From Pseudomonadota bacterium (GTDB lineage: Bacteria > Pseudomonadota > Gammaproteobacteria > Burkholderiales > Burkholderiaceae_C): 64,000 bases of DNA. The stretch spans positions 1 to 64,000 of the forward strand of contig JAJZVU010000001.1 of NCBI GenBank assembly GCA_021845505.1. The letters run 5' to 3'. A program made the position numbers and the translations under genes. The notes under the pieces are model-generated. The model was given only the letters and a program-made list of their open reading frames with translations. It did not search any database and was not told the origin of the DNA. Position 1 is the stretch's first letter. Each line of letters begins with the position of its first letter. This document shows positions 3,982-59,276 of the stretch, piece by piece.

Positions 3982-5352
3982 ATGCAACCCGACACCCAGG
4001 ACACCCGCGACCAACCCCTCGACGCCATCGTCGCCGCGGTGCAACTGCCCGAGGTCAGCGACGGGGACTTCGAGTCCTCGCTCGCCGAGCTGCGCGAGCT
4101 GGCCAAGACGCTGGGCTATCGGGTGGTGGAGACCTTCACCCAGAGGCGCGCCAGCTTCGACACCACGGCCTACCTCGGTGCGGGCAAGCGCGAGGAGCTG
4201 CGCGCCTATGTCGAAGGCCACGCAGGCGCGACGCACGACGCGCGACCGGGCCATGCGACCCACGAGCAGTGGGAAGGCATCCAGGCGCTGCTGATCGACC
4301 ACGAGATCTCGCCGTCGCAGGCGCGCAACCTCGAGAAGGCCGTGGGCTGCGAGGTGATGGACCGCACGATGGTGATCCTGGAGATCTTCCATCGCCATGC
4401 GCGCTCGCGCGCCGCGCGCGCCCAGGTGGAAATCGCCCGCCTGGGGTACATGGCGCCGCGGCTGCGCGAGGCGGCCAAGCTGGCGGGACCCCAGGGCCGG
4501 CAGCGCAGCGGCACCGGAGGGCGCGGCGCCGGCGAATCGCACACCGAGCTGGATCGGCGCAAGATCCGCGACCGCATCGCCGAGCTGCAACTGGAGATCG
4601 ATGCCATGGGCACCGAGCGCCAGACCCAGCGGGCGCGCCGCCAGCAGGGCCAGGGCGTGGCCAGCGTGGCGCTGGTGGGCTACACCAACGCGGGCAAGTC
4701 GACGCTGATGCGCGCCCTCACCGGCAGCGAGGTGCTGGTGGCCAACAAGCTGTTCGCGACCCTGGACACCACGGTGCGGGTGCTGCACCCGGAAAGCGTG
4801 CCCAGGGTGCTGGTCAGCGATACCGTGGGGTTCATCAAGAACCTCCCGCATGGCCTGGTGGAGTCCTTCAAGTCCACGCTGGACGAGGCCCTCGACGCGT
4901 CGTTGCTGCTGCACGTGATCGACGCCAGCGACCCCGGATTCGAGCGCCAGCGCAAGGTCACCGAGGACGTGCTGGCCGAGATCGGCGCGCAGGACATCCC
5001 GCGCATCCGGGTGTTCAACAAGATCGACCGGGTCGGCGACGCGCAGGCGCAGTCGGCATTCGAGCGCGAGGCACGCGCCGGCGACCCCTCGTGCGTCGTG
5101 ATGAGCGCGCGCCGCGCCGACGATGTGGCGAACTTGCGCTCGCTCATCGTCGCGTTCTTCCAGAAGGACCTGGTCGAGGCGGAATTGCGCCTGCCGTGGG
5201 CGGCGCAGCAGCTGCGCCGGGACATCTACGCCAACTGCCAGGTGTTGGCCGAGAGCGCCGACGAAGCGGGCGCGGTGTTCCGCGTGCGCGGCGAGGAGGC
5301 GACCATCCGCTCGCTGCGCGCGCGCTTCGCGGACATTGCGTCCGCGGGCTGA
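3982..5352 (+). CDS. hflX: GTPase HflX
   Basis: Ribosome-associated GTPase of the Obg-HflX superfamily that splits stalled or stress-hibernating 70S ribosomes. 456 residues, in the family range. The N-terminal HflX domain (about 20-160, with the conserved AYLGAGKREEL stretch) leads into a basic coiled linker (about 165-225) and the G domain: G1 GYTNAGKST at 233-241, G3 DTVGF at 280-284, G4 NKID at 346-349. The C-terminal ~60 residues close the fold. In many betaproteobacteria hflX follows hfq; here it stands alone behind a 578-bp gap and is followed 50 bp later by a purine permease on the same strand. ATG 3982 has no clear Shine-Dalgarno sequence but is the first in-frame ATG giving the standard N-terminus. 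Confidence 0.95.
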   Translation: MQPDTQDTRDQPLDAIVAAVQLPEVSDGDFESSLAELRELAKTLGYRVVETFTQRRASFDTTAYLGAGKREELRAYVEGHAGATHDARPGHATHEQWEGIQALLIDHEISPSQARNLEKAVGCEVMDRTMVILEIFHRHARSRAARAQVEIARLGYMAPRLREAAKLAGPQGRQRSGTGGRGAGESHTELDRRKIRDRIAELQLEIDAMGTERQTQRARRQQGQGVASVALVGYTNAGKSTLMRALTGSEVLVANKLFATLDTTVRVLHPESVPRVLVSDTVGFIKNLPHGLVESFKSTLDEALDASLLLHVIDASDPGFERQRKVTEDVLAEIGAQDIPRIRVFNKIDRVGDAQAQSAFEREARAGDPSCVVMSARRADDVANLRSLIVAFFQKDLVEAELRLPWAAQQLRRDIYANCQVLAESADEAGAVFRVRGEEATIRSLRARFADIASAG

Positions 5353-5402
5353 GCCGTTGCCGGGCGTGCCCGCAGAGCAGACCAAGCCAGAGGAGACCGA
5401 CG

Positions 5403-6701
5403 ATGACATGGCAGTCCCTGTTCAAGCTCGAGGAGCATGGCTCCGACGTGCGCACCGAGGTGATGGCCGGCTTCACGACCTTCCTCACCATGTCGTACAT
5501 CATCTTCGTGAACCCGGCGATCCTGTCGACCACGGGGATGAACCACGATGCGGTGTTCGTCGCCACCTGCCTGGCGGCGGCGCTGGGCACCTTCATCATG
5601 GCCTTCCTCGCCAACTGGCCGATCGGGCTGGCGCCGGGGATGGGCCTGAACGCCTTCTTCGCCTTCACGGTGGTCAAGGGCATGGGCTTCACCTGGCAGC
5701 AGGCGCTGGGGGCGGTGTTCATCTCCGGTTGCGTTTTCGTCGCCCTCACGATCACCGGTCTGCGGAGCTGGCTGGTCGCCGGGATCCCCAAGTCGCTGCG
5801 CAGCGCCATCGCCGCGGGCATCGGCATGTTCCTGGCGATCATCGCGCTGTCGGGCGCGGGCATCGTCGTCGCCAACCCGGCGACCAAGGTGGGCCTGGGG
5901 GACCTGCACAGCCTGCCCGTGCTGCTGGCCACCCTGGGCTTCGTGCTCATCGCGGTGCTGGACTACTTCCGCTGGCGCGGCGCCATCCTCATCGGCATCC
6001 TCGCGGTCACGCTGGCCAGCGTGGCGCTCGGGCTGACGCACTTCCGGGGCATCGTCTCGATGCCGCCGAGCGTCTCGCCCACGCTGTTGCAGCTGGACAT
6101 CCCGGGGGCGCTGCGCGGCGGCTTCTTCCACATCATCCTGGTGTTCGTGCTGGTGGAGATCTTCGACGCCACCGGAACCCTGACCGGGCTGGCGCGCAAG
6201 GCCGGGCTGCTCGAGGGCGGCCGCGAGGAGGGGCTGGGCCGCGCGCTGTTCGCCGACAGCCTGGCGATCTTCTCGGGGGCGCTGCTCGGCACCAGCAGCA
6301 CCACGGCCTACATCGAGAGCGCCTCCGGGGTGCAGGCGGGCGGGCGCACCGGACTGACCGCGGTGACCATCGGCGTGCTGTTCCTGGCGGCGCTGTTCTT
6401 CTCCCCGCTGGCGGCCATCGTTCCGCCCTACGCGACCGCGCCGGCGCTGCTGTACGTGGCCGGGCTGATGATGCGCGAACTGCTGCAGATCGACTGGAAC
6501 GACGTCACCGAGGCCGTTCCGTCGGCGCTGGCCGCGCTGGTCATGCCCTTCACCTACTCGATCGCCAACGGGCTGGCCTTCGGGTTCATCGTCTACGCCG
6601 CGCTCAAGCTGGCCACCGGGCGGGCGCGCGAGGTGCATCCGGCGCTGTGGGTGGTGGCCGGCCTGTTCCTGCTGCGCTTCGTGCTGTTCCCGGCGGACTG
6701 A
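5403..6701 (+). CDS. AzgA-family adenine/guanine/hypoxanthine permease (NCS2)
   Basis: Proton-coupled nucleobase permease of the inner membrane, 432 residues with about 12-14 hydrophobic helices. The AzgA signature is clear: N-terminal ..TEVMAGFTTFLTMSYIIFVNP, the substrate-site helix GLAPGMGLNAFFAF, and the later EIFDATGTLTGLA and GTSSTTAYIESASG segments. ATG 5403 is preceded by GAGGAGA at the right distance. An in-frame upstream extension exists only because hflX is open in that frame. Purine specificity (adenine or guanine/hypoxanthine) cannot be told from sequence alone. No purine riboswitch is visible in the 50-bp gap after hflX. Confidence 0.92.
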   Translation: MTWQSLFKLEEHGSDVRTEVMAGFTTFLTMSYIIFVNPAILSTTGMNHDAVFVATCLAAALGTFIMAFLANWPIGLAPGMGLNAFFAFTVVKGMGFTWQQALGAVFISGCVFVALTITGLRSWLVAGIPKSLRSAIAAGIGMFLAIIALSGAGIVVANPATKVGLGDLHSLPVLLATLGFVLIAVLDYFRWRGAILIGILAVTLASVALGLTHFRGIVSMPPSVSPTLLQLDIPGALRGGFFHIILVFVLVEIFDATGTLTGLARKAGLLEGGREEGLGRALFADSLAIFSGALLGTSSTTAYIESASGVQAGGRTGLTAVTIGVLFLAALFFSPLAAIVPPYATAPALLYVAGLMMRELLQIDWNDVTEAVPSALAALVMPFTYSIANGLAFGFIVYAALKLATGRAREVHPALWVVAGLFLLRFVLFPAD

Positions 6702-6758
6702 CGCACCGGGGCGCCCGGGCGCGGCGAGCCGACCGCGGTTCGCCCGCCGCGGTCGAAC

Positions 6759-7082
6759 TCAGCCGGTGTGGCCGACCGCCACCTCGCTGATCTGGATCTG
6801 CGGCTGGATGTCGGTGTAGTTCGGGATGTCGGCCATGATCTCCTTGACGTGCGGCGCGAAGCCGGCCTGGAAGGCCTCGACCGAGTCGCTGAAGATATGG
6901 CCCATCGCGACGTAGGTCGCGGGCTCGCCGGGCGCGCCGCCGGCCAGCCCGACGTCGACGGTGTAGAAGCGACACGCCGCCCCCATGCGCGCCTGCACCA
7001 GCGGCATGTGCCTGTCACGGTAGTACGCGTGATCGAAACGGGCCCCGCTCAGGTTGGGATACATCACGCTGACCTTGATCAT
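6759..7082 (-). CDS. EthD-family small protein
   Basis: 107 residues, a dimeric ferredoxin-like alpha/beta-barrel protein of the EthD family: MIKVSVMYPN start, the YYRDRHMPLV motif and IPNYTDIQPQIQISEV at the end. Family members are found beside ether-degradation cytochrome P450 or acyl-CoA genes, but their biochemical role is unproven. Start ATG 7082 has GAGGAGG about 9 bases upstream. It follows the acyl-CoA synthetase gene by 68 bp on the same strand and is probably co-transcribed. A long upstream in-frame extension is a shadow of that gene. Confidence 0.85.
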   Translation of the reverse strand: MIKVSVMYPNLSGARFDHAYYRDRHMPLVQARMGAACRFYTVDVGLAGGAPGEPATYVAMGHIFSDSVEAFQAGFAPHVKEIMADIPNYTDIQPQIQISEVAVGHTG

Positions 7083-7150
7083 GCCAAGCCTCCTCGTCGC
7101 CATCCCGCGGGTGCCGGCGCCCACCGCCGGCACGGCCGCGATCCCGGCCA

Positions 7151-8770
7151 CTATACCGGGCCCGAGCCGCCGCGACGCAGCAGGTAGCGCTGCACCTTGC
7201 CGCTGGGGGTCTTGGGCAGCTGGGCCACGAACTCGATCTGCCGCGGATACGCGTGGGCCGACAGCCTGTGCTTGACGAACTGCGCCAGCTCCTCGGCCAA
7301 CGCGGAGTCGGCCAGCCGACCCGCCGCGGGCACGACGAAAGCCTTGACGATCTCGGTGCGCTGCGCGTCGGGTTGACCCACCACCGCGGCCTCGACCACC
7401 GCCGGATGCTCGAGCAGCGCGCTCTCGACCTCGAAGGGGCCGATGCGATAGCCCGAGGAGGTGATCACGTCGTCGGTGCGGCCGATGAACACGACGTGCC
7501 CGTCGGCGCTCAGCTCCACGCTGTCGCCACTGCGGTAATAGCGCCCCGGCGCGGGCTGGCCCACGTAGCCGCGGAACCAGAACAGCGGCGAATGCTCGGT
7601 GTCGACCGCCAGTTCGCCGGGCTGCCCGGGCCCGAGTTCGCGTTCCTGCGCGTCGAGCACGCAGATGCGGTAGCCGGGCATCGGCAGGCCGGCCGCGCCT
7701 GCGTGCACGACGTGGTGCAGCCCGTGGTGGTTGTTGACCACCATGCCCAGCTCGGTCTGCCCGTAATGATCGCGGATCGGCGCCTGCAGGTGGGAGTCGA
7801 ACCAGCGGATGACCTCGGGGTTCAACGGCTCGCCGGCGCTGCTGACGCAGCGCAGCTGTCCGCGCAACGGGGCCGCCGCGTCGGCCCCGGCGGCGATCAG
7901 CAGGCGAAACGCGGTGGGCGCGCCGGCCAGGTTGGTGATCCCCAGCTCGCGCACCAGGCGCCAGGTGCTGTCGGCGCTGAACGGACCGTCGTGGAAGGTG
8001 GTCGCGTGCCCCAGCAGCAGCGGGCCGGTGACCGCGTAGTACAGCCCGTAGGCCCAGCCCGGGTCGGCGATGTTCCAGTAGCGGTCGCCGCTGTGCAGGT
8101 CGACCGCGTCGACCATGTAGGCACGGAAGTTCAGCAAGGCCTTCAGCGGCACCGGAACGCCCTTGGCCGCGCCGGTCGTACCCGATGTCGACATCATCAG
8201 GAACAGGTCGTCGCCGCTGCGCGGAACCGGCGCGAAGTCCTCGCGCTGCCGCGCCAGCCCGGCACGCAGGTCGAGGTCCGCCGCAGGCACCACGTCGGCC
8301 AGCAGCGCCACCCGGGGCCCGGCCAGGCCGTCGAGCTTGGCGCGGTTGGCCGCATCGGTGACCACCAGCCGCGCGCCGCTCGTGGCCAGCCGCTGCGCGA
8401 CGGCCTGCGGCCCGAAGGCCGTGAACAGCGGTTGGTAGACCGCGCCGGCGCGCCAGGTACCGAGGATCACCGCGAGCAGCTCGGGAGTGCGGGGCAGCAT
8501 CGCCGCGACCACGTCGCCGGGACCGATGCCCTGCTCGAGCAGCAGGTTGGCGAAGCGCGCGGCGGCGGCGCGCAGTTCGGCGAAACGCAGGGTCGCCGCG
8601 CGCCCGTCGGCGCTGCGCCAGTGCAGCGCGACCCGCAACGGGTCGTCGGCCCAGCGGTCGCAACACTCGACGCAGGCGTTGATCCCCCGCTGGAAGTCCC
8701 CGGTGAAGGGGGCCTGGGCACGCTCCAGGCTGAAGGCCGCGGCGGCCTGGGCATAGTCCGGTCGATCCAT
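7151..8770 (-). CDS. AMP-forming acyl-CoA synthetase (medium-chain/ACSM type)
   Basis: Activates a carboxylic acid to its CoA thioester with ATP, giving AMP and pyrophosphate. 539 residues. The ANL-family signatures are all present: P-loop STSGTTGAAKG, the acyl-pocket region LAGAPTAFRLL, the DHYGQTELG motif, YYRSGDSVE, the hinge GRTDDVITSSGYRIGPFEVE, and the catalytic lysine in LPKTPSGKVQRYLLR at the C-terminus. The sequence resembles medium-chain synthetases more than acetyl-CoA synthetase, but substrate is not decided. ATG 8770 is preferred; an in-frame ATG at 8821 would add 17 residues of low-complexity sequence. The downstream EthD gene is likely in the same transcript. Confidence 0.9.
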   Translation of the reverse strand: MDRPDYAQAAAAFSLERAQAPFTGDFQRGINACVECCDRWADDPLRVALHWRSADGRAATLRFAELRAAAARFANLLLEQGIGPGDVVAAMLPRTPELLAVILGTWRAGAVYQPLFTAFGPQAVAQRLATSGARLVVTDAANRAKLDGLAGPRVALLADVVPAADLDLRAGLARQREDFAPVPRSGDDLFLMMSTSGTTGAAKGVPVPLKALLNFRAYMVDAVDLHSGDRYWNIADPGWAYGLYYAVTGPLLLGHATTFHDGPFSADSTWRLVRELGITNLAGAPTAFRLLIAAGADAAAPLRGQLRCVSSAGEPLNPEVIRWFDSHLQAPIRDHYGQTELGMVVNNHHGLHHVVHAGAAGLPMPGYRICVLDAQERELGPGQPGELAVDTEHSPLFWFRGYVGQPAPGRYYRSGDSVELSADGHVVFIGRTDDVITSSGYRIGPFEVESALLEHPAVVEAAVVGQPDAQRTEIVKAFVVPAAGRLADSALAEELAQFVKHRLSAHAYPRQIEFVAQLPKTPSGKVQRYLLRRGGSGPV

Positions 8771-8860
8771 GGTGCTCGGCTCCCCCGCGCCGGCCGCGAC
8801 GCGCGGCCTCCCCGGCCACACTATAGGACGCCGGGACGAGGCGGCGCAGCACCGGCGCTG

Positions 8861-9871
8861 CTACGGCGCCGTCGCGCTGCGGCCACGCGCACCCAGGCCG
8901 CCGTGGACCCGGTCCAGCCACAACAGCAAGGCTTTTTGAGCGTGCTTTCGATTCTCCGCCTGGTCGAAGACGATGGAACGCGGGGAGCGCAGCACCTGCG
9001 CCGACACTTCGTGCCCGGGGTGTGCGGGCAGACAGTGCATGAACAAGGCCCCCGGCGCGGCCAAGGCCATCAAGCCGGAATCGACCTGCAACCCGGCGAA
9101 GCGGCGCTGCCGCTCGGCCATCTGCTGCTCCTGGCCCATCGAGACCCAGGTATCGGTGTAGACGACATCGACTCCGCGAACTGCGGCGCGCGGATCGGCT
9201 TCGTGGCGGACCATGGCCGCGCCACCGGGCAAGCCCGCGGCGTCGAGCCGATGGCCTTCGGGACTGCACAGCGTGCACTCGACGCCCAGTCGGGCCGCTG
9301 CCTGCACCAGCGAGCGGCAGACGTTGTTGCCGTCGCCGACCCAAGCGAGCCGAAGCCCGCGAAGGTCAGGGCCGAAATATTCCGCCAAGGTCAACAGGTC
9401 GGCCACCGCCTGGCAAGGGTGCTCGCGATCGCTCAGGCCGTTGACCACCGGAACCTCGGCGTGCTCGGCCACGACCTGCAGGGTCCGATGGCGGTCCACC
9501 CTCGCCACGATCACGTCGCAGTAGCGTGACAGCACGATCACTTCGTCGCGCACATCGGCCAGCATGAAATTGCTGCGCGACCAATCGAGATAGCTGCAAT
9601 GGGCGGCCATTTCGCGGGTCGCCGCTTCGAAGGAACAACGGGTGCGAGTCGAGGTCTTCTGAAACAGCAATGCCACGGCGACGTGCGCCAGCGCGTCGGC
9701 GTAGTCGCCGGGGCACCGCTTGATCTCCAGCCCATCCGCGAGGATGGCCGCCAGCGCGTCCGTGTCCAGATCGGCGGCCGACAGCAGGGAAGCCGGCCGA
9801 CAGGCCGCCCGCCGTGCGTGGCGGGTCTGCGCGAGTCGCCAGGCGGCTTCGCGGCATGGGATGCTCAACAT
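8861..9871 (-). CDS. argF: Ornithine carbamoyltransferase
   Basis: Transfers the carbamoyl group from carbamoyl phosphate to ornithine to give citrulline (arginine biosynthesis, or catabolic use in some species). 336 residues, about 25-30 longer than typical OTCs because of an arginine-rich N-terminal stretch (CREAAWRLAQTRHARRAAC). Carbamoyl-phosphate site STRTR at 74-78, HPCQ in the middle, ornithine-side FMHCLPAHPG near the end. The C-terminal ..KHAQKALLLWLD is typical. Start ATG 9871 is the last ATG before the conserved body; upstream in-frame sequence to 10012 is not family-like. No other arg gene is adjacent. Whether it is the anabolic enzyme or a second copy cannot be judged from this window. 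Confidence 0.85.
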   Translation of the reverse strand: MLSIPCREAAWRLAQTRHARRAACRPASLLSAADLDTDALAAILADGLEIKRCPGDYADALAHVAVALLFQKTSTRTRCSFEAATREMAAHCSYLDWSRSNFMLADVRDEVIVLSRYCDVIVARVDRHRTLQVVAEHAEVPVVNGLSDREHPCQAVADLLTLAEYFGPDLRGLRLAWVGDGNNVCRSLVQAAARLGVECTLCSPEGHRLDAAGLPGGAAMVRHEADPRAAVRGVDVVYTDTWVSMGQEQQMAERQRRFAGLQVDSGLMALAAPGALFMHCLPAHPGHEVSAQVLRSPRSIVFDQAENRKHAQKALLLWLDRVHGGLGARGRSATAP

Positions 9872-10058
9872 GGTCGGGCTCCGGCGTTGCGCGGCTTGCT
9901 GGACGGCAGCGGGAAACCACGAGACGGCCCGAAGCGCCGTGGCTTGGGAGGCAACCCCGCTGCGCCGCCCGAGACAGTCGAGCCGCATGCCCGGACAAAG
10001 GGCGGAACACAAGCTCTTCGAGTCGCGTTCCGGCCAAAAGTTCCCGCCCCTCGGCGTG

Positions 10059-12959
10059 TCAGTGAACGATGTCCTGGTTCATCCAGCCCTGGGGCAGCGC
10101 CCGCATCGCCTCCTCGATCGGCAGCGCCGGGCCTTGGTCGACGGGATCGCGCAGCGCCTGCAGCAGCCGGGCCACCGCCTGCACTTCGCCGTGCGACTCG
10201 TTGCGCAGCCGCCGCAGCGCCTGCAACGCGGAGTCGAGCTCGGCGCGCGCCGGCTCGCGCTGGCCGCGCAGCGCCAGCAGCATGCCGTGCACCCAGCGCG
10301 TGCGCGCCGCGCGCGCCGCGTCGGCCCACGCGCTGTCCGGCTCCCAGAGGCTCTGCACCTTGCGCAGCACGTCGCAGGCGCGCGCCAGCGTGGCCTCGTC
10401 GATGCGCGGCCCCCCGGAATAGATCGCGACCGCGGCCTCGGCCAGCGCGGCGTCGTGGGCGGCGCACCCGCGCTGCGCCTCGGGCGAGCGCTTGCCGTCG
10501 AGCGGGAGCTCGGCATCGAGGTCGCGCGCTTCGTAGATGGCCCTCAGCCAGCGGTAGCACTCGCGGGCCTGCTCGCGCGCATCCAGCCAGTCCGACATCT
10601 CGCCGCGCCCCGCGCTCCAGTCGGCGAACGCCGCGTCGGCCAGCGCGGCGGCAGCGCCGCAGGCGTCGAAAATCGCCACCGCGGTCTGCACGCCCCACCT
10701 CGCGCCCGCCTTGCGCTCGGCGGCCTGGATCGGCTCGATGGCCTCGCCGAACTGCTCCAGCGCCTCCTGCTGGCGGCCCTGTGCCGCCAGCACCCGGCCG
10801 CGGGTGCGCAGCAGCATGCCGTGGCGCAGGGTGTCCTCCAGGCCCTGGTCCTGCAACAGCTCGAGTCCCTGGTCGGCGTGGCGCGCGGCAGACTCGGCGT
10901 CGCCCGCGGCCAGCGCCAGCAACGCGAGTTCGTCCAGCGCGCGCGCCTGCAGCGGCGTATCGCGTCGGGCGCGCGCGAGCTCGCTCACGCGCCACCAGAC
11001 GGCGGCCAGCGGCTGGTTGTCGCAGCCGATCTCGGCCAGGTGCTCGGCCAGGCCGAGCAGCGCGGCGGGGTCGCTCCACGCGGGCAGCACCTCGACCAGC
11101 CGCGGCAGCCAGTCGACGAGCAGGCGCGCATCGCGCGCGGGCGGCGGTTCGGACACCCCGTCGCGGCGCAGCTCGAGGTGGCGCTGCCACAGCCAGGCGG
11201 CCAGTTGCGCGCGCCCGACAGCGGCGTCGACGTAATACGGGTTGTGCTGCTCGGTGCCCAGCCACTGCGCGAGGCTGGCGTGGAACAGCCGCAGTCCGTC
11301 GGCGTCGTCGACCAGATAGCTGCCCAACCGGCGGATGCGGCTCGCGAGTTCTTCGCCATGGCAGTCCAGCACGGACTTGGCCATGTCCCTGGGCAACGGG
11401 CCCGGCGCGGCCACCAGCAGGCGCAACAGCGGCGCCACGCGCTGGAATTCGGCGTCGTCCGGCAGCCGCCTGTTGAAGCCGCTGGCGTAGCGGCTGTACA
11501 GGCCCGGAACCCCGGGGGCCAGCGAGTCGAGGTCCTGCGCGCGCAGCGAGCCCTCGCGCAGGCCCTCGAACACCAGTTGCAGGTAGAGGATCATGCCCTG
11601 GCTGCGCTCGATCAGCGCCTGCTCGCGGCGCTGCAGCGCGTCGCGGGTCGCCGCGTCGAGCCCTTCGTGCTGCTCCAGCAGGCGCCGGTAGCAGGCCTGC
11701 AGGTCGGCTGCGTTGCGCGGGTCGGCGGGCTGCAGTTGCAGGCTGCCGAAGCCCTGCAAGCGCGACAGCACGGCGGCCTCGGGGCGGCTGGTGACCACGA
11801 AGCGCAACCACCGCGGCAGTTCGCCGGCGTGGCTGGCCAGCAGGGCGGCGATCGCATTGCGGCCATCGGGCGCGGTGGCCTCGTCGAGGGCGTCGATCAG
11901 CACCACCCCGCCGGCGCGCTCGGCATGCAGGTCGGCCAGCGGCTCGCGCAGCAGCACCCGGAACAGATCGACCGCCGACATGCGCCGCAGCTCGCGCCTG
12001 ACCTCGTCGAGTTGTCGCGCCCCGGAGTCGCCGGTGACGCTCAGTTCGCGCATCAGTTCCTTGCGGTAGTCCTGCAGCCGGAAGGCCAGCTGGAAGGCGA
12101 TTCCCCGCAGCAGCGCCTCGGCACGGCCGAGCTCGCTGCTTCCGGCTTCGCAGAACCAGCTCGCCAGCACGCTGTCGCGCCGGCTCGACGCCAGGTTCAC
12201 CGCCAGCGCGGTCTTGCCCATTCCGGGCCCGCCCTCGATGCGCAACAGGCGCGACTGCGGCTCGCGCCGCAGCCAGTCGTCGTAGGCTTCGAACACCCAG
12301 TCGCGGCCGACGAAGTCCGGCAGGTGCTGGGCGAACCGCGACTCGAAGCCTTCCGGCCGCAGCACCTGCAGCAGCGCCTGGAACTCGGCCACGAGCTCGC
12401 CCGCCTCCTCGCCCTCGACCTTGTCGATGGTGTCCTTCAGGCGGCGGGCGTACCAGCCGGTCCATTCGACCCCGGGGACCTTGCCGGCGCGGATGTCCTT
12501 CCAGCCGCTGAGGTCGGGCCACTGCAGGTCGCGCAGCGACGGCGGGATCGAGTCCTCGATGCCCCGCTCGAGCAGCAGCGCGTAGACCACGCCCAAGCGG
12601 TTGCTGGCGATGGCGATTTCGTTGCGGCACACCCCGCCTTCGCGCAGCGCATGGGCCGACAGGAAAGCCACCGCCATCTGGCTCTGGTGGATGCACGCGG
12701 TGATGCGTCCCCGCCAGTCGTCCCACTGCTGGATGAACATCCAGTCGGTGAGGACCTTGTGGCCGCGCCGGCTCAGTGCGTCGACGAACAGGCGCACCAG
12801 TTCCTCGTCCTCGCCGTGGGGGTAGCTGAAAAACACCACCTTCGGCCGCGCCGCCTTGTCATCCGCCGCGGACGCGGCGGCGTCCGGCTTGCCGACGGGA
12901 AACGATGGGTCGGGGCTGTCCGCCGCGGCGGGGCGGCTGTCGCTGGGGTCGTAGGGCAC
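10059..12959 (-). CDS. TIR-domain STAND NTPase with C-terminal repeat region (candidate defence/signalling protein)
   Basis: 966 residues from a GTG start at 12959, which has GAGGAG about 9 bases upstream. After a disordered, Ala/Asp/Pro-rich start (1-38) comes a TIR fold (about 40-170: [19 protein letters not shown], then GHKVLTDW, then CRNEIAIA with the putative NAD-hydrolase glutamate E114). Next is a STAND/NACHT-like NTPase: Walker A GGPGMGKT at 243-250, Walker [10 protein letters not shown] at 352-360, and a [10 protein letters not shown] sensor stretch near 390. The region from about 400 to 640 is helical (winged-helix-like), and about 640-966 is rich in Ala/Leu helices with TPR-like spacing, a likely ligand sensor. 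This order is that of bacterial TIR-NLR-like anti-phage proteins. It is a lone gene between metabolic genes, with no partner effector. No specific named defence family can be assigned from sequence alone. Confidence 0.8.
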
Positions 12960-13107
12960 TGCGCGGGGCTCCTCGGTCGTGGCTGCACCACAGCATAGAG
13001 GCGGCCGCGCCGGGGTGTCGAGGCGGAGCCGGCGGGCTTGCGCCCGTCCGGGTCGAGCCGCCATCGGCGGGCTCGCGCCGGTCCCGGTGAGGCGGCGCGG
13101 GCGCGCC

Positions 13108-13157
13108 TGCGCGCCGCTCAGGGGAGGCGGCGCGGCCGAGCTTGCGCGCCGCTCAGG
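13108..13157. repeat. 15-bp direct repeat around the 3' end of the DGC gene
   Basis: TGCGCGCCGCTCAGG occurs at 13108-13122 and again at 13143-13157, where it covers the DGC-gene stop codon. The copies are 35 bp apart in start position. The wider gap 12960-13152 also has imperfect GC-rich repeats (GCGGGCTTGCGCC / GCGGGCTCGCGCC). It may be a small 3'-end duplication; no function is evident. Confidence 0.5.
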
Positions 13158-13611
13158 CGTCGACGGCGCAGCCGGCCTGCTGTTCGCTGGCGCGAGCCAT
13201 CTCGCGCACCTGCAGGGTGCACTGCCGCAGCAACTCGGCCGCCTGCGCGGGGTCGAAGTCGGCGTGCGGGAGTTTGCGCACCCCGGCGTCGGACAGCAGC
13301 AGGTGGCGGGTGGGCTCGACGCCGACCTGCGCCAGCGCATGGCCGACGCAGCGCAAGGCGCAGCCGTCGATCGCCAGGATCGGCCGCCGCGCGGCCTGCG
13401 CGCGTTGCGCCAGCCGAACCAGCGGCTTGACTCCGCCGCCGACCCCGGCGATGCACGACATTTCGGCCTCGCCGCTGCGGTCCAGCCGCACCGCCAGATG
13501 GTTGGCGAGTTGCGCCGCGCTCGAGCAGCCCGAGCAGGAATACACCAGCGGCAGCCCACGTTGCGCGGACTCCTGCGGACCCCCTCCGTGCTGATCGCTC
13601 GATTCCGGCAT
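13153..13611 (-). CDS. DGC-domain putative zinc-binding protein
   Basis: 152 residues. Hallmarks of the DGC family are visible: N-terminal [22 protein letters not shown], then [12 protein letters not shown], the name-giving IDGCALRC, and C-terminal [13 protein letters not shown]. The repeated Cys pairs (CSGC, DGC..C) suggest zinc binding; function of the family is not established. ATG 13611 is preceded by GGGAG. It is transcribed away from ilvD from a strong sigma70-like promoter at 13672-13701 with a palindromic spacer, so expression is probably controlled. Neighbour genes give no pathway. Confidence 0.85.
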
Positions 13612-13671
13612 CGCCTGGCTCCCGGTTGCGCGGCCGGCGGGAACGCCGCTGCCCGCGAGCCGGATGAGCGC

Positions 13672-13701
13672 ATTATAGTGGTATTACTTATACCACTTCA
13701 A
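13672..13701 (-). promoter_or_regulatory. Sigma70-type promoter with palindromic operator in its spacer, driving the DGC gene
   Basis: On the minus strand TTGAAG (-35, 13696-13701) is followed after 18 bases by a perfect TATAAT (-10, 13672-13677). The spacer is almost wholly a palindrome, arms AGTGGTAT / ATACCACT (13677-13697) around TACTT. Transcription would start about 50 bp before the DGC start codon. A dyad between -35 and -10 is a classic site for a repressor or a MerR-type activator; the TGGT..ACCA ends are also seen in GntR-family sites (inference). Confidence 0.7.
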
Positions 13702-13818
13702 CCACGGCCGCGACGGCCTGCCGCCGGCTGCTTTAAGCTAGCAGGCTGCCGTGCGCGCCGACCCGAGGGTGGGCGCGGCCGCGCCCACCAGACAGCTCGC
13801 CATCCGAGAGGCTTTTCC

Positions 13819-15666
13819 ATGCCAAGCTATCGTTCCAGGACTTCGACCGCCGGCCGCAACATGGCGGGCGCTCGCGCGCTGTGGCGCGCGACGGGGATGC
13901 ACGACGCCGACTTCGACAAGCCGATCATCGCGGTCGCCAACTCCTTCACCCAGTTCGTCCCGGGCCACGTGCACCTGAAGGACCTGGGCCAGCTGGTGGC
14001 GCGGGAGATCGAGGCTGCCGGCGGGGTCGCCAAGGAATTCAACACCATCGCGGTCGACGACGGCATCGCGATGGGCCACGACGGCATGCTGTACTCGCTG
14101 CCCAGCCGCGACATCATCGCCGACTCGGTCGAATACATGGTCAACGCCCACTGCGCCGACGCGCTGGTGTGCATTTCCAATTGCGACAAGATCACCCCCG
14201 GCATGCTGATGGCGGCGATGCGACTGAACATCCCGGTGGTGTTCGTCTCGGGCGGCCCGATGGAGGCCGGCACGACGCGCCTGGCGCAGGGCGGCGGCAA
14301 GCGCAAGATCGACCTCATCGACGCGATGGTCATGGCCGCCGACCCGAAGGTCTCGGACTCCGAGGTCGCCGAGGTCGAGCGCTCGGCCTGCCCGACCTGC
14401 GGCTCGTGCTCGGGAATGTTCACCGCCAACTCGATGAACTGCCTGACCGAGGCGCTGGGGCTGGCGCTGCCCGGCAACGGCACGGTGGTCGCGACCCATG
14501 CCGACCGCAAGCAGCTGTTCCTGGGCGCCGGACGGCTGGTGGTCGAGTTGTGCCGCCGCTACTACGAGCAGGACGACGCCTCGGTGCTGCCGCGCAACAT
14601 CGCCGGCCGCGCCGCCTTCGAGAACGCGATGAGCCTGGACATCGCGATGGGCGGCTCGACCAACACCATCCTGCACCTGCTGGCCGCGGCGCAGGAGGCC
14701 AGGCTGGATTTCGGCATGACCGACATCGACAAGCTGTCGCGGCGGGTGCCCAACCTGTGCAAGGTCGCGCCGTCCAGCCACTACCACGTCGAGGACGTGC
14801 ACCGCGCAGGCGGAATCATGGCCATCCTCGGCGAGCTCGACCGCGCCGGGCTGCTCGACACCAGCGTGCCCACCGTGCACTCGCCGACGCTGGCGCAGGC
14901 GCTGGCGCGCCACGACGTGGCCGTGTGCGACGACCCGGCGGTGCGAACCTTCTACCGCGCCGGCCCGGCGGGAATCCCGACCCAGCAGGCCTTCAGCCAG
15001 GACACCCGCTGGGACGAACTCGACCTGGACCGACAGCGCGGCTGCATCCGCAGCGCCGAGCATGCCTACAACCGCGAAGGCGGCCTGGCGGTGCTGTACG
15101 GCAACATCGCCGTCGACGGCTGCGTGGTCAAGACCGCCGGAGTCGACGAGGCGCTGTTCCGCTTCGAGGGCCCGGCGCGGGTCTACGAAAGCCAGGACGC
15201 GGCGGTCAAGGGCATCCTGGGCGACGAGGTGCAGCCGGGCGACGTGGTGGTCATCCGCTACGAAGGCCCGCGCGGCGGGCCGGGGATGCAGGAAATGCTC
15301 TACCCCACCTCCTACCTCAAGTCCAAGGGCCTGGGCAAGCAGTGCGCGCTGGTCACCGACGGGCGCTTTTCCGGCGGCACGGCCGGGCTGTCGATCGGCC
15401 ACGTCTCGCCCGAGGCGGCGGCCGGCGGGGCGATCGGCCTGGTGCGCGACGGCGACCGCATCCGCATCGACATCCCGGCGCGGCGCATCGAGGTGCTGCT
15501 CGACGAGGCCGAACTCGCGCGCCGCCGCGGCGCCCAGGACGCGCAGGGCTGGAAGCCCGCCGCGCCGCGCGCTCGCGCGGTGTCGACCGCGCTGAAGGCC
15601 TACGCGCTGCTGGCCACCAGCGCCGACAAGGGCGCGGTGCGCGACCTGTCGCGCTACGAGGACTGA
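13819..15666 (+). CDS. ilvD: Dihydroxy-acid dehydratase
   Basis: Branched-chain amino acid synthesis: dehydrates 2,3-dihydroxy-isovalerate and -methylvalerate to the 2-keto acids, using an Fe-S cluster and Mg. 615 residues, matching the usual ~616. Cluster-ligand regions [10 protein letters not shown] (C122) and [12 protein letters not shown] (C191, C194, C197) are present, as are [24 protein letters not shown] and the C-terminal [23 protein letters not shown]. Start ATG 13819. The gap to the divergent DGC gene is 207 bp and carries no attenuator-like leader that I could recognise. It stands apart from other ilv genes. Confidence 0.97.
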
Positions 15667-15786
15667 AGGCCCGCGGCGCACCTGGCGGGCCGGTGGGCGG
15701 GCGGGCCGCGTCGCGCCCGCCGGGCCCCGACGCTGCGCGGCGCGCCTGCGGGCAAGTCCCGATCCCGCGAGGCGGCGACTCGTCCT

Positions 15787-16341
15787 ATGCTCGCCCCCGT
15801 ATCTCGATTCGTGCATAGGACCATGCTCGGAACCCCGACCATCGACCTCGCCAGCGGCCAGCCGCCGACGCTGCAGCAGGTGCGCAAGACATCCAGGCGA
15901 CTGCTGCTGGGCATTGCCTGCTCGTTCGCGGTCGTCGCCTACCTGGTCAGCAGCACGCTGATCGCCCTCGGCGAGGCGCATATGAGCACCCGCGCTGCCG
16001 ACCTGGGCGCCACGGGCCCGCTGGGCTACGCCGCCGATGCGCTGCAGATCGCCATCGTGCTGGCGGCCGCCTACCTGCTGTACCGCTCGCTGATGGGCTA
16101 CCTGGACCTGTGCATCTGCGAGGACTCCAAGGTCTGCAGGGTGGTCTACGCGGTGTGCCGCGCCAACCCCCAGGCCGATCGCTACCGCCAGGCCGTGGTG
16201 AGCCAGGCCAGGGGATTCCTGACCGCCGAGATCGACGCCTTCTACGAGCTGAGCTCCGCCGAGGTGTGGACCCGCAGCTGGCCCGAGGACCTGCGCGACC
16301 AGGTTCGCTCCCCCGGCCCGCTGGCCAGCGGCGCCGCCTGA
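15787..16341 (+). CDS. Two-helix membrane protein of unknown function
   Basis: 184 residues from ATG 15787; ATG 15823 (172 residues) is an equally possible start, and neither has a good ribosome site. Two hydrophobic segments are seen, LLLGIACSFAVVAYLVSSTLIAL (about 38-60) and the one around LQIAIVLAAAYLLYRSL (about 85-103). The remaining C-terminal half is soluble, with the cysteines LCICEDSKVCRVVYAVC that might bind metal. I do not recognise the family. It lies between ilvD and the octaheme cytochrome, and a hairpin at 16355-16379 directly after its stop separates it from that cytochrome, so it is probably its own unit. Confidence 0.6.
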   Translation: MLAPVSRFVHRTMLGTPTIDLASGQPPTLQQVRKTSRRLLLGIACSFAVVAYLVSSTLIALGEAHMSTRAADLGATGPLGYAADALQIAIVLAAAYLLYRSLMGYLDLCICEDSKVCRVVYAVCRANPQADRYRQAVVSQARGFLTAEIDAFYELSSAEVWTRSWPEDLRDQVRSPGPLASGAA

Positions 16342-16354
16342 GGCGCGCCGCGCC

Positions 16355-16379
16355 GCGCGGCCGCAAGCGGCCGCGCTTT
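16355..16379 (+). terminator. Probable terminator hairpin before the octaheme cytochrome gene
   Basis: Arms GCGCGGCCGC (16355-16364) and GCGGCCGCGC (16367-16376) form a perfect GC-rich stem closed by a CAAG loop and followed by TTTCCTT. The T-run is short, so strength is uncertain. It lies 14 bp after the stop of the membrane-protein gene. Confidence 0.5.
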
Positions 16380-16512
16380 CCTTGCGCTGGCTCAACTTGG
16401 CTGCCCCCGGCGGCCGTGTCGGCCGGGAAATTGCCTTTCGTCAACTCCGCGGCGCGCGGCGCGCGCAACATGGCCTTCCATTCGTCTGGCCTTCGCAGGA
16501 GACAGGACGGCC

Positions 16513-18285
16513 ATGCATCCCGACCGATTGCCGCCGCGGCAGCGCAGCGGCGCAAGCCACGCGCCGCTGGCGCTCGCCGCGCTGTTGTGGGCTCTGTGCA
16601 GCGCCGGTGGCGCGGCCGGCGCGAGCCCGGCGGCGTCGCCGCCCTCCGCCGCCAGCCGCGCCTGGCATGTCGTCGTGCCGCCGGTGCAGCAGGGCGCGGT
16701 GGGCAGGCAGATCCCCCAGGACCACAGCCGCTACGCCCAGCTGCAGGGCCCTTTCACCTCGCCCGAGCAGGTGACCAGGGCCTGCCTGGAATGCCATACC
16801 GACGCGGCGCGCCAGGTGATGGCGTCGATCCACTGGACCTGGAAGGCCTGGGACCCGAAGACCCGGCAGTGGGTCGGCAAGAACCACGTCTACAACAATT
16901 TCTGCGTCAGCCCGATCAGCAACGAACAGTTCTGCACCGTCTGCCACGCCGGCTACGGAAGCACCGACCCGAACCACTTCGTCCCCTTCGCCAGCCGATC
17001 GCAGGACCATGTCGACTGCCTGGTCTGCCATGACCAGACGGGCAAGTACCACAAGATTCCCTTCATCGGCGGCAACCCGGCGATGACCACCATCGCGGTC
17101 CGCCCGGGCTGCGGCGAGGTCTACGGCACCGACCGGCCCTATGTGCTGCCGGAGAACCTGGCGGCCATCGCGCGACACGTCGGCGCGCCGACCCGCGCCA
17201 CCTGCGGTGCCTGCCACTTCTACGGCGGCGGCGGCGACGGGGTCAAGCACGGCGACCTCGACAGCTCGATGGCGGCGCCGTCGCGCGCCGAGGACGTGCA
17301 CATGTCGCCCGGGGGCCTGGACTTCAGCTGCCAGCAGTGCCACGCGACGGCCAACCACCGGATCAGCGGATCGCGCTACCTGACCGACGTCGGGACCTTC
17401 GACCGCCGCTACCAGCGCGGCGGGCGGCACAACGGCCAGGCCGCCAGCTGCGTGTCCTGCCACGGCGGCGCGCCCCACCGGGGCGCGGGCGTGGCGGCGC
17501 GCATCGAGGCGGCGACGCTGAACATGCACTCCCGCGATGTCGCCTGCGAGAGCTGCCACATCCCGGAGTTCGCGCGCGGCGGCCTGCCGACCAAGATGCG
17601 CTGGAACTACGCCACCGCCGGCAAGCTCGCCCCCAACGGCTCGCCGCTGGTGATCAACGACAGCAGGGGCTGGAACACCTACTGGGGCGTGAAGGGCAGC
17701 TTCGAGTGGGCGACCGACGTGGTCCCGAGCTACCGCTGGTTCGACGGGACCGAACGCTGGATGACCATCGGCAGCAGGATCGCCGACTTCGAGAACGGCA
17801 AGGGGATCGTCCGGATCAACGCCATCGAAGGCCGCGCTGGCGACGGCAGGTCGAAGATCTTTCCCTTCAAGATCATGCGCACCAACCAGCCCTACGACAG
17901 CCGCACCGGAATCCTCGCGGTGTTCCATTCCTTCGGCTTCGACCGGTCCGCCTACACCATGGGCTACGACTGGCAGACGGCGATCGCCGCCGGGATGAAG
18001 GCCGCGCACCTGCCGTATTCGGGCCACTACGCCTTCGTGAACACCGAAATGTACTGGCCGATCGAGCACATGGTGGCGCCGGCCGACGCCGCGCTGAGCT
18101 GCTCGCAATGCCATGCCGCGCAAGGCCGGCTGCAGCAGGTCGACGGGGTGTACATGCCGCGGCGGGCACGCGACCACAACCGCTGGATCGAGGCCATCGG
18201 GTTGCTGGCGGCCGCGCTGGCGCTGGCCGGCGTGGCGCTGCACGGCGTGCTGCGGCTGGTCTTCTGGCTGCGCCGCCGTCACTGA
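16513..18285 (+). CDS. Octaheme c-type cytochrome, tetrathionate reductase family, with C-terminal membrane anchor
   Basis: 590 residues. A signal sequence (APLALAALLWALCSAGGAAG) leads to a periplasmic domain with exactly eight CXXCH heme sites, starting at C91, C141, C169, C231, C273, C313, C345 and C530. The count and the wide last gap match the octaheme tetrathionate reductase (OTR) family, whose Shewanella member reduces tetrathionate, nitrite and hydroxylamine in vitro; the physiological substrate is unsettled. Unlike the soluble Shewanella protein it ends in a transmembrane helix (IGLLAAALALAGVALHG) plus a basic tail, so it should be membrane-anchored. GGAGACAGGACGG lies before ATG 16513. 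The next gene, 12 bp on, is a b-type cytochrome that could pass quinol electrons to it. Confidence 0.9.
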   Translation: MHPDRLPPRQRSGASHAPLALAALLWALCSAGGAAGASPAASPPSAASRAWHVVVPPVQQGAVGRQIPQDHSRYAQLQGPFTSPEQVTRACLECHTDAARQVMASIHWTWKAWDPKTRQWVGKNHVYNNFCVSPISNEQFCTVCHAGYGSTDPNHFVPFASRSQDHVDCLVCHDQTGKYHKIPFIGGNPAMTTIAVRPGCGEVYGTDRPYVLPENLAAIARHVGAPTRATCGACHFYGGGGDGVKHGDLDSSMAAPSRAEDVHMSPGGLDFSCQQCHATANHRISGSRYLTDVGTFDRRYQRGGRHNGQAASCVSCHGGAPHRGAGVAARIEAATLNMHSRDVACESCHIPEFARGGLPTKMRWNYATAGKLAPNGSPLVINDSRGWNTYWGVKGSFEWATDVVPSYRWFDGTERWMTIGSRIADFENGKGIVRINAIEGRAGDGRSKIFPFKIMRTNQPYDSRTGILAVFHSFGFDRSAYTMGYDWQTAIAAGMKAAHLPYSGHYAFVNTEMYWPIEHMVAPADAALSCSQCHAAQGRLQQVDGVYMPRRARDHNRWIEAIGLLAAALALAGVALHGVLRLVFWLRRRH

Positions 18286-59185: not shown

Positions 59186-59276
59186 TGGCGGAGAGAGGGG
59201 GATTCGAACCCCCGAAGGGTTATTCACCCTTACACGCTTTCCAGGCGTGCGACTTCAACCGCTCATCCATCTCTCC
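59186..59276 (-). tRNA. tRNA-Ser (anticodon GGA)
   Basis: Minus strand. Acceptor GGAGAGA pairs with TCTCTCC, the discriminator is G, and CCA is encoded (59186-59188). The anticodon stem-loop CACGC-CTGGAAA-GCGTG gives GGA, which reads UCC/UCU serine codons. The long variable arm (AAGGGTGAATAACCCTT) and T-loop GGGGGTTCGAATCCCCC are typical of serine tRNAs. Confidence 0.97.

Follow-up and report, generated by a model that had tools for sequence, protein, structure and literature searches.

A TIR-NLR of P4-like satellites protected E. coli against phage (PMC9122126), and conflict proteins of the TIR-AP-ATPase-TPR kind are already in print (PMC7159879). A preprint (PMC13174449) describes DUF4062 as resembling TIR and acting as an NADase in defence against phage, and includes tests of bacterial Swarozyc proteins, which combine a DUF4062 head with an auxiliary domain. 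It also assigns human NPHP3, NWD1/2 and TEP1 a DUF4062 TIR-like head adjoining a NACHT-type switch, and reports that human NPHP3, similar in layout, does not cleave NAD+, which we count against reading the gene studied here as an NADase. In the literature searched, which left most subscription papers outside, we found no bacterial TIR-NPHP3 family described, nor any paper linking PGDYG with TIR, or TPR-S with STAND, TIR and conflict systems.

Here we analysed one gene in a window of 64,000 nucleotides, the term denoting the whole stretch of DNA under study. The minus-strand frame at 10059-12959 is open throughout its 966 codons (966-residue product) and begins with a GTG at 12959, just ahead of which lies a ribosome-binding-like GAGGAG; residues are numbered with this GTG as residue 1. 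We favour, with reasonable though not high confidence, the reading that the gene encodes a cytoplasmic NLR-like TIR-nephrocystin-3 receptor that cleaves NAD+ on recognition of a foreign molecule, and the predicted cleavage probably serves abortive infection. The helical C-terminus would recognise a foreign, probably phage-made, molecule; by analogy with STAND proteins in general, recognition would then cause the switch, made up of the NPHP3-type NTPase and the winged helix, to oligomerise, and the oligomer would pair the TIR domains, whereupon NAD+ would be cleaved via E114 and the infected cell stopped or killed. The features of the gene are as follows.

10059..12959, minus strand: candidate TIR-NPHP3 receptor gene (open frame, GAGGAG, Pfam domains)
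12846..12959, minus strand: N-terminal 38 residues, of low confidence in the model, in place of the CxxC...CxxC segment of 14 of 19 members
12501..12836, minus strand: TIR domain (residues 42-153; TIR_2 above cut-off)
12618..12620, minus strand: E114, predicted catalytic Glu (invariant in 19/19; aligned with the Roq1 and Cat1 Glu)
11784..12299, minus strand: NPHP3_N P-loop NTPase (residues 221-392; Pfam)
12210..12233, minus strand: Walker A, GGPGMGKT (residues 243-250; from the sequence, K249 invariant in 19/19)
11880..11906, minus strand: Walker B, VVLIDALDE (residues 352-360; from the sequence, D356, D359 and E360 invariant in 19/19)
11160..11468, minus strand: winged-helix domain (residues 498-600; HTH_TANC1, invariant H560 in FHxS)
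10062..11159, minus strand: all-helical TPR-like C-terminus, predicted sensor (residues 601-966; weak TPR_12, model, TPR fold matches, sensor exchange in relatives)

The initial annotation had placed a TIR domain, both Walker motifs and a helical C-terminus in this one gene. Pfam and the structure model bear this out, and in the sequence Walker A, Walker B and E114 lie at the positions it had given. TIR_2 matched with E 2e-13 (51.2 bits, cut-off 28), NPHP3_N with E 2e-18 (67.6 bits, cut-off 24.8) and HTH_TANC1 with E 3e-10, above its cut-off. The profile search that the annotation had called for was thus borne out for TIR and yielded the NPHP3_N class for the NTPase, but NACHT and TPR_12 (671-742) stayed below the Pfam cut-off. 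The window protein has a STAND or NLR-like layout, in which a P-loop NTPase carrying both Walker motifs precedes a winged helix and then repeats; the repeats are drawn from the model, their TPR profile being below cut-off. TPR_NPHP3 was not matched in the window protein at E 0.001 (Pfam scan of 19 members), no DUF4062 match appeared up to E 1, so that the protein lacks the Swarozyc type of head, and no NCBIfam profile scored above its cut-off. PADLOC profiles gave five weak matches, four of them within the TIR region. We take a plus-strand frame at 9720-12998 to be an antisense shadow; the simple codon-usage gene caller favours antisense frames in this GC-rich DNA and was not relied on for the window and for C32, the contig of the paralogue described below. 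The GC content of the gene is 0.73 (0.94 at third positions) and its neighbours are similar, which leaves no compositional hint of recent import.

When solved structures were aligned by profile, the putative NADase glutamate proposed earlier, E114 within VCRNEI, came to lie on the CxxE-motif Glu of Roq1 and Cat1. All 19 aligned members keep C111, E114, K249, D356, D359, E360 and H560 without change, which is consistent with a catalytic role for E114. At position 77 of the BB loop the window protein has Q, whereas its sister has K and L009, L010 and L011 have G; the G of the nearest relatives against the Q of the window protein was counted against the NADase receptor. A first AlphaFold2 model built from 4 sequences was poor (pLDDT 46.7) and was dropped. 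The second, from 19 sequences (pLDDT 77.3, pTM 0.62), shows an alpha/beta head at 41-157, a NOD-like middle at about 210-600 and an all-helical tail from 601. Searching the PDB with the window protein alone returned nothing meaningful, unlike the family profile, which matched plant TIR-NLRs. Fold comparison aligned the model with RPP1 over residues 39-590 at an rmsd of 14 A, a value indicating either that the domain arrangement may differ from that of RPP1 or that it may be badly modelled, and with the switch modules of CED-4 and NRC4; its TPR fold matches include MalT, Rap and NprR. Profiles, the invariant Glu and fold comparison together support the suggested likeness to NLR-type immunity proteins.

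Scanning of the family showed TIR_2 and NPHP3_N in 19/19 members, TPR_12 in 17/19, TPR_NPHP3 in 12/19 (best E-value 1.6e-99) and HTH_TANC1 in 6/19 (Pfam); the 19-row alignment leaves out L115, which is split over two frames, and L124. By eye, 14 of the 19 open with a CxxC...CxxC segment; the five that lack it are the window gene and its G024 sister, the paralogue, L012b and L013. Across the 19, PADLOC matches fell in the TIR, SAVED-TIR, bSEFIR, TPR and PDC families, with one match each to Avs1b and PDC-M71B near E 0.0007; judged by such profile matches, PADLOC models cover the TIR-NPHP3 branch in parts only. Two further proteins combine the parts differently: L116 joins NPHP3_N to a WD40 tail and has neither a TIR_2 nor a DUF4062 match, while L125, found by the TIR-NPHP3 family profile, has a DUF4062 head and a WD40 tail.

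The family is rare and patchily spread. Protein searches found the window gene in 2 of 28 genomes of its genus (its own and the sister genome G024) and in 2 of 60 genomes of a wider sample. The family profile was found in 1 of 399 genomes at the order level, the window's own (E at most 1e-60), in 5 of 186 genomes of the Polynucleobacter rarus genus and in 3 of 144 of the Paraburkholderia lycopersici genus, where one of the three lacks TIR. Across 84,980 species genomes, a pattern-limited scan yielded 13 loci: two belong to G024, and the others to Paraburkholderia, Verrucomicrobia, Hydrogenophaga, Polynucleobacter, a Burkholderiales bin, a bacterium and a spirochaete. Searches of viral contigs turned up no relative, those of phage records no match, and plasmids gave two partial matches to the NTPase region at 25-28% identity; a plasmid search with L009 was set aside, its matches lying mainly in the TPR part of that protein. 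Both carrier genomes of the genus also have a paralogue (L003 5462-8302 on G000:C32 in the window genome), a TIR-NPHP3 protein with 39% identity over residues 47-706 and a different TPR tail, whose G024 copy is 98% identical. In the tree, the window and G024 genes cluster with Paraburkholderia (98/96) and then with two Verrucomicrobia (99/96), and the paralogue with Hydrogenophaga (96/100), which suggests, on thin sampling, transfer between phyla. The initial annotation had not included the nephrocystin-3 class of the NTPase, the paralogue elsewhere in the genome or the partner genes that accompany relatives.

Neighbours were surveyed at 15 TIR-NPHP3 loci in 13 genomes outside G000, the window genome, and G024. 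L010 and L115 come from one genome, as do L016 and L114; the three genes of G441 were counted as one locus, as were the two of L012; and L008 and L014 (G024 copies of the window gene and paralogue), L116 (no TIR_2) and L125 (DUF4062 head) were excluded. The earlier proposal of an immune role would have been refuted by homologues lying always in non-defence contexts; immune-type genes adjoin 11 of the 15 loci, namely DUF4062 genes at 5, cassettes of PGDYG, TPR-S and membrane-protein genes at 3, and other TIR, caspase or methylase genes at 3. At L010, L011, L016 and L117 no immune-type neighbour was recognised among those scanned, the L010 and L117 stretches being truncated. The five DUF4062 genes lie within 10 kb: 29 bases upstream at L017, where the gene also matches TPR_NPHP3; 92 bases away in the G441 island; at L114 in a run of four genes that overlap by 4 bases or stand 65 and 7 bases apart; 7 bases downstream with a WD40 tail at L115; and 2.8 kb away, also with a WD40 tail, at L015. 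Defence genes cluster in any case. Under uniform placement, at least five DUF4062 neighbours among 11 genomes would arise with a chance of about 6e-8 (the census took in 12 genomes, without those of L011 and L124, and the estimate also left out G024), but because of that clustering the proximity shows shared surroundings and not a shared pathway. DUF4062 proteins with WD40 tails at L115 12814-15891, L015 15643-20793 and L125 8774-12661 match TEP1 propeller models. The Polynucleobacter rarus island (G441:C1, about 1.52-1.58 Mb; L119, L120, L121, L018, L019) holds three TIR-NPHP3 genes with DUF4062, TIR and SIR2 genes. In addition, L017 and L118 lie beside phage-type integrases, the latter also beside a type I restriction system; near L013 lie genes for a TIR protein and a caspase, together with a PGDYG stretch; and L020 overlaps a TIR-LRR-TPR gene, with a Type ISP methylase nearby.

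The cassettes raise the question whether the TIR domain makes a signal, on the model of Thoeris, with a separate effector reading an ADP-ribose-type messenger and no depletion of NAD. Candidate readers are the TPR-S and membrane proteins of the cassettes, in which PGDYG, TPR-S and membrane-protein genes recur together in two genera (L009 6780-9780, L124 11518-14524 and L118 6131-8655); the membrane protein of L118 shares only 21% identity over 131 residues with that of L009. A further candidate, at L012, is a protein whose DUF4231 match is below cut-off; this locus also has a second TIR-NPHP3 gene. Against this, ten partner queries had no match in the window, in the C32 paralogue contig or in two G024 contigs, and no messenger-reading effector was found among the window neighbours at 3982-18282; we regard a messenger as rather unlikely. 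A TIR_2 search of the window genome gave two matches. One DUF4062-STAND gene (L111 7476-10631, G000:C20) also occurs in that genome, apart from both TIR genes, and the DUF4062 head is absent from G024.

With respect to the NAD+-cleaving receptor, the C-terminus appears exchangeable in relatives. L016 and L018 are 93% identical in the TIR domain, 94% in the NTPase and 30% in the C-terminus, and L017 and L019b 91, 95 and 27%, respectively; in both pairs DNA identity of about 0.8-0.9 drops to about 0.4 around nucleotides 1710-1890, at the end of the winged helix. The C-terminus is therefore predicted to be a swappable sensor on a conserved TIR-NTPase chassis, and the swaps in these two pairs, together with the combinations in L116 and L125, make heads and tails look exchangeable. 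Patchiness, immune-type neighbours and this exchange strengthen the case for the window gene as a candidate immune gene. The window protein shares 88% identity with its G024 counterpart, against 95-99% for five flanking products and 90% for the DGC product. Between the sisters the TIR domain is conserved and the last 166 residues change fast: the ratio of non-synonymous to synonymous change is 0.13 for TIR, 0.53 for the NTPase, 0.45 for the winged-helix part, 0.47 for TPR and 1.03 for residues 801-966, the TIR ratio differing from that of the last part with p 0.0017, the NTPase with 0.039, TPR with 0.068 and the winged helix with 0.13 (uncorrected values from one sister pair). Synonymous change is uneven between the two genes (0.06-0.17), so recombination may contribute to these ratios, and a value near 1 in residues 801-966 can also reflect relaxed constraint.

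That value bears on whether the gene is a remnant, a lone copy that lost the partners kept by Paraburkholderia relatives and no longer works. The window gene is solitary, as is its copy in G024, and has no CxxC segment, while its nearest relatives outside the sister pair, two Paraburkholderia loci, have three partner genes each. Yet the frame is intact in both sister genomes, the TIR ratio is low, the catalytic and switch residues are all kept, and L016 looks solitary too, with haem and phenylalanyl-tRNA synthetase genes apparently around it (by eye). Decay of this kind seems to us improbable.

The gene had been described as sitting among housekeeping genes without a partner, which would make it a possible one-gene system, and its eight neighbours at 3982-18282 are indeed metabolic, DGC or unmatched. 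A DGC-domain gene lies 193 bases away on the same side as ilvD, and a carbamoyltransferase, an AMP-binding enzyme, a permease and an HflX-like GTPase lie on the opposite side; no integrase was found among the eight, and the sole tRNA of the window is at 59186. Most of the gap separating the TIR and DGC genes is taken up by a 35-base tandem array (13017-13176, 4.5 copies, 73% matches); the G024 copy of this gap looks longer and repetitive. A multihaem cytochrome gene (Cytochrome_cB, Cytochrome_C554) is found at 16513-18282. The gene order recurs in G024 and is absent from the other eight congener stretches around ilvD; since ilvD has other surroundings there, an empty-site comparison was unusable. 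The carbamoyltransferase has a close relative only in G024 (95%), other congeners reaching at most 44% among the matches listed. These metabolic neighbours, and the MalT, Rap and NprR folds, would suit a STAND regulator of metabolism or development and not of immunity, which patchiness, C-terminus exchange, the phage-type integrases beside L017 and L118 and the restriction system beside L118 make very unlikely. For the NAD+-cleaving receptor we counted the domains, invariant residues, fold matches, patchiness, immune-type neighbours, sensor exchange and TIR conservation, and against it the metabolic neighbours and the four of 15 loci without a recognised immune-type neighbour.

More broadly, TIR-NPHP3 proteins could form a distinct class of bacterial NLRs, occurring together with, or in alternation with, DUF4062-NPHP3 and DUF4062-WD40 receptors. 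A single nephrocystin-type switch would then accept either TIR or DUF4062 as its NADase head and either TPR or WD40 as its sensor tail; human NPHP3 and related proteins would be domesticated versions of this immune chassis, and the window gene would be a solitary form able to work by itself. We put this forward tentatively, as an idea that may well prove wrong. The DUF4062 genes near 5 of the 15 loci carry the head type of human NPHP3, NWD and TEP1 proteins, as described in the preprint. In the natural pairs, effector and switch are almost the same while the tails differ, which makes tail recognition by bacterial NLRs directly testable.

Among known proteins, plant Roq1, RPP1 and WRR4A have a TIR domain, a NOD switch and a winged helix in the same order as the window protein (profile and fold matches). 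Plant TIR-NLRs end in an LRR tail, whereas the window protein has a TPR-like tail and an NPHP3-type NTPase. Its likeness to the P4-satellite TIR-NLR is one of name; PADLOC 2.0.0 gave no match named TIR-NLR for the window protein or the 19 members, and its database may not hold that system. The TIR-AP-ATPase-TPR proteins likewise combine TIR, a STAND-type NTPase and TPRs, but their NTPases are named AP-ATPases, whereas the window NTPase is NPHP3_N with HTH_TANC1 by Pfam. In the human NPHP3-type proteins of the preprint a TIR-like head adjoins a NACHT-type switch; the relatives of the window protein have NPHP3_N and TPR_NPHP3, and some lie beside DUF4062 genes. From the Swarozyc and DUF4062 proteins of the preprint the window protein differs in its head, a canonical TIR_2. 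TIR-STAND-repeat immune proteins are a known kind, and the window protein belongs to a nephrocystin-type branch of them.
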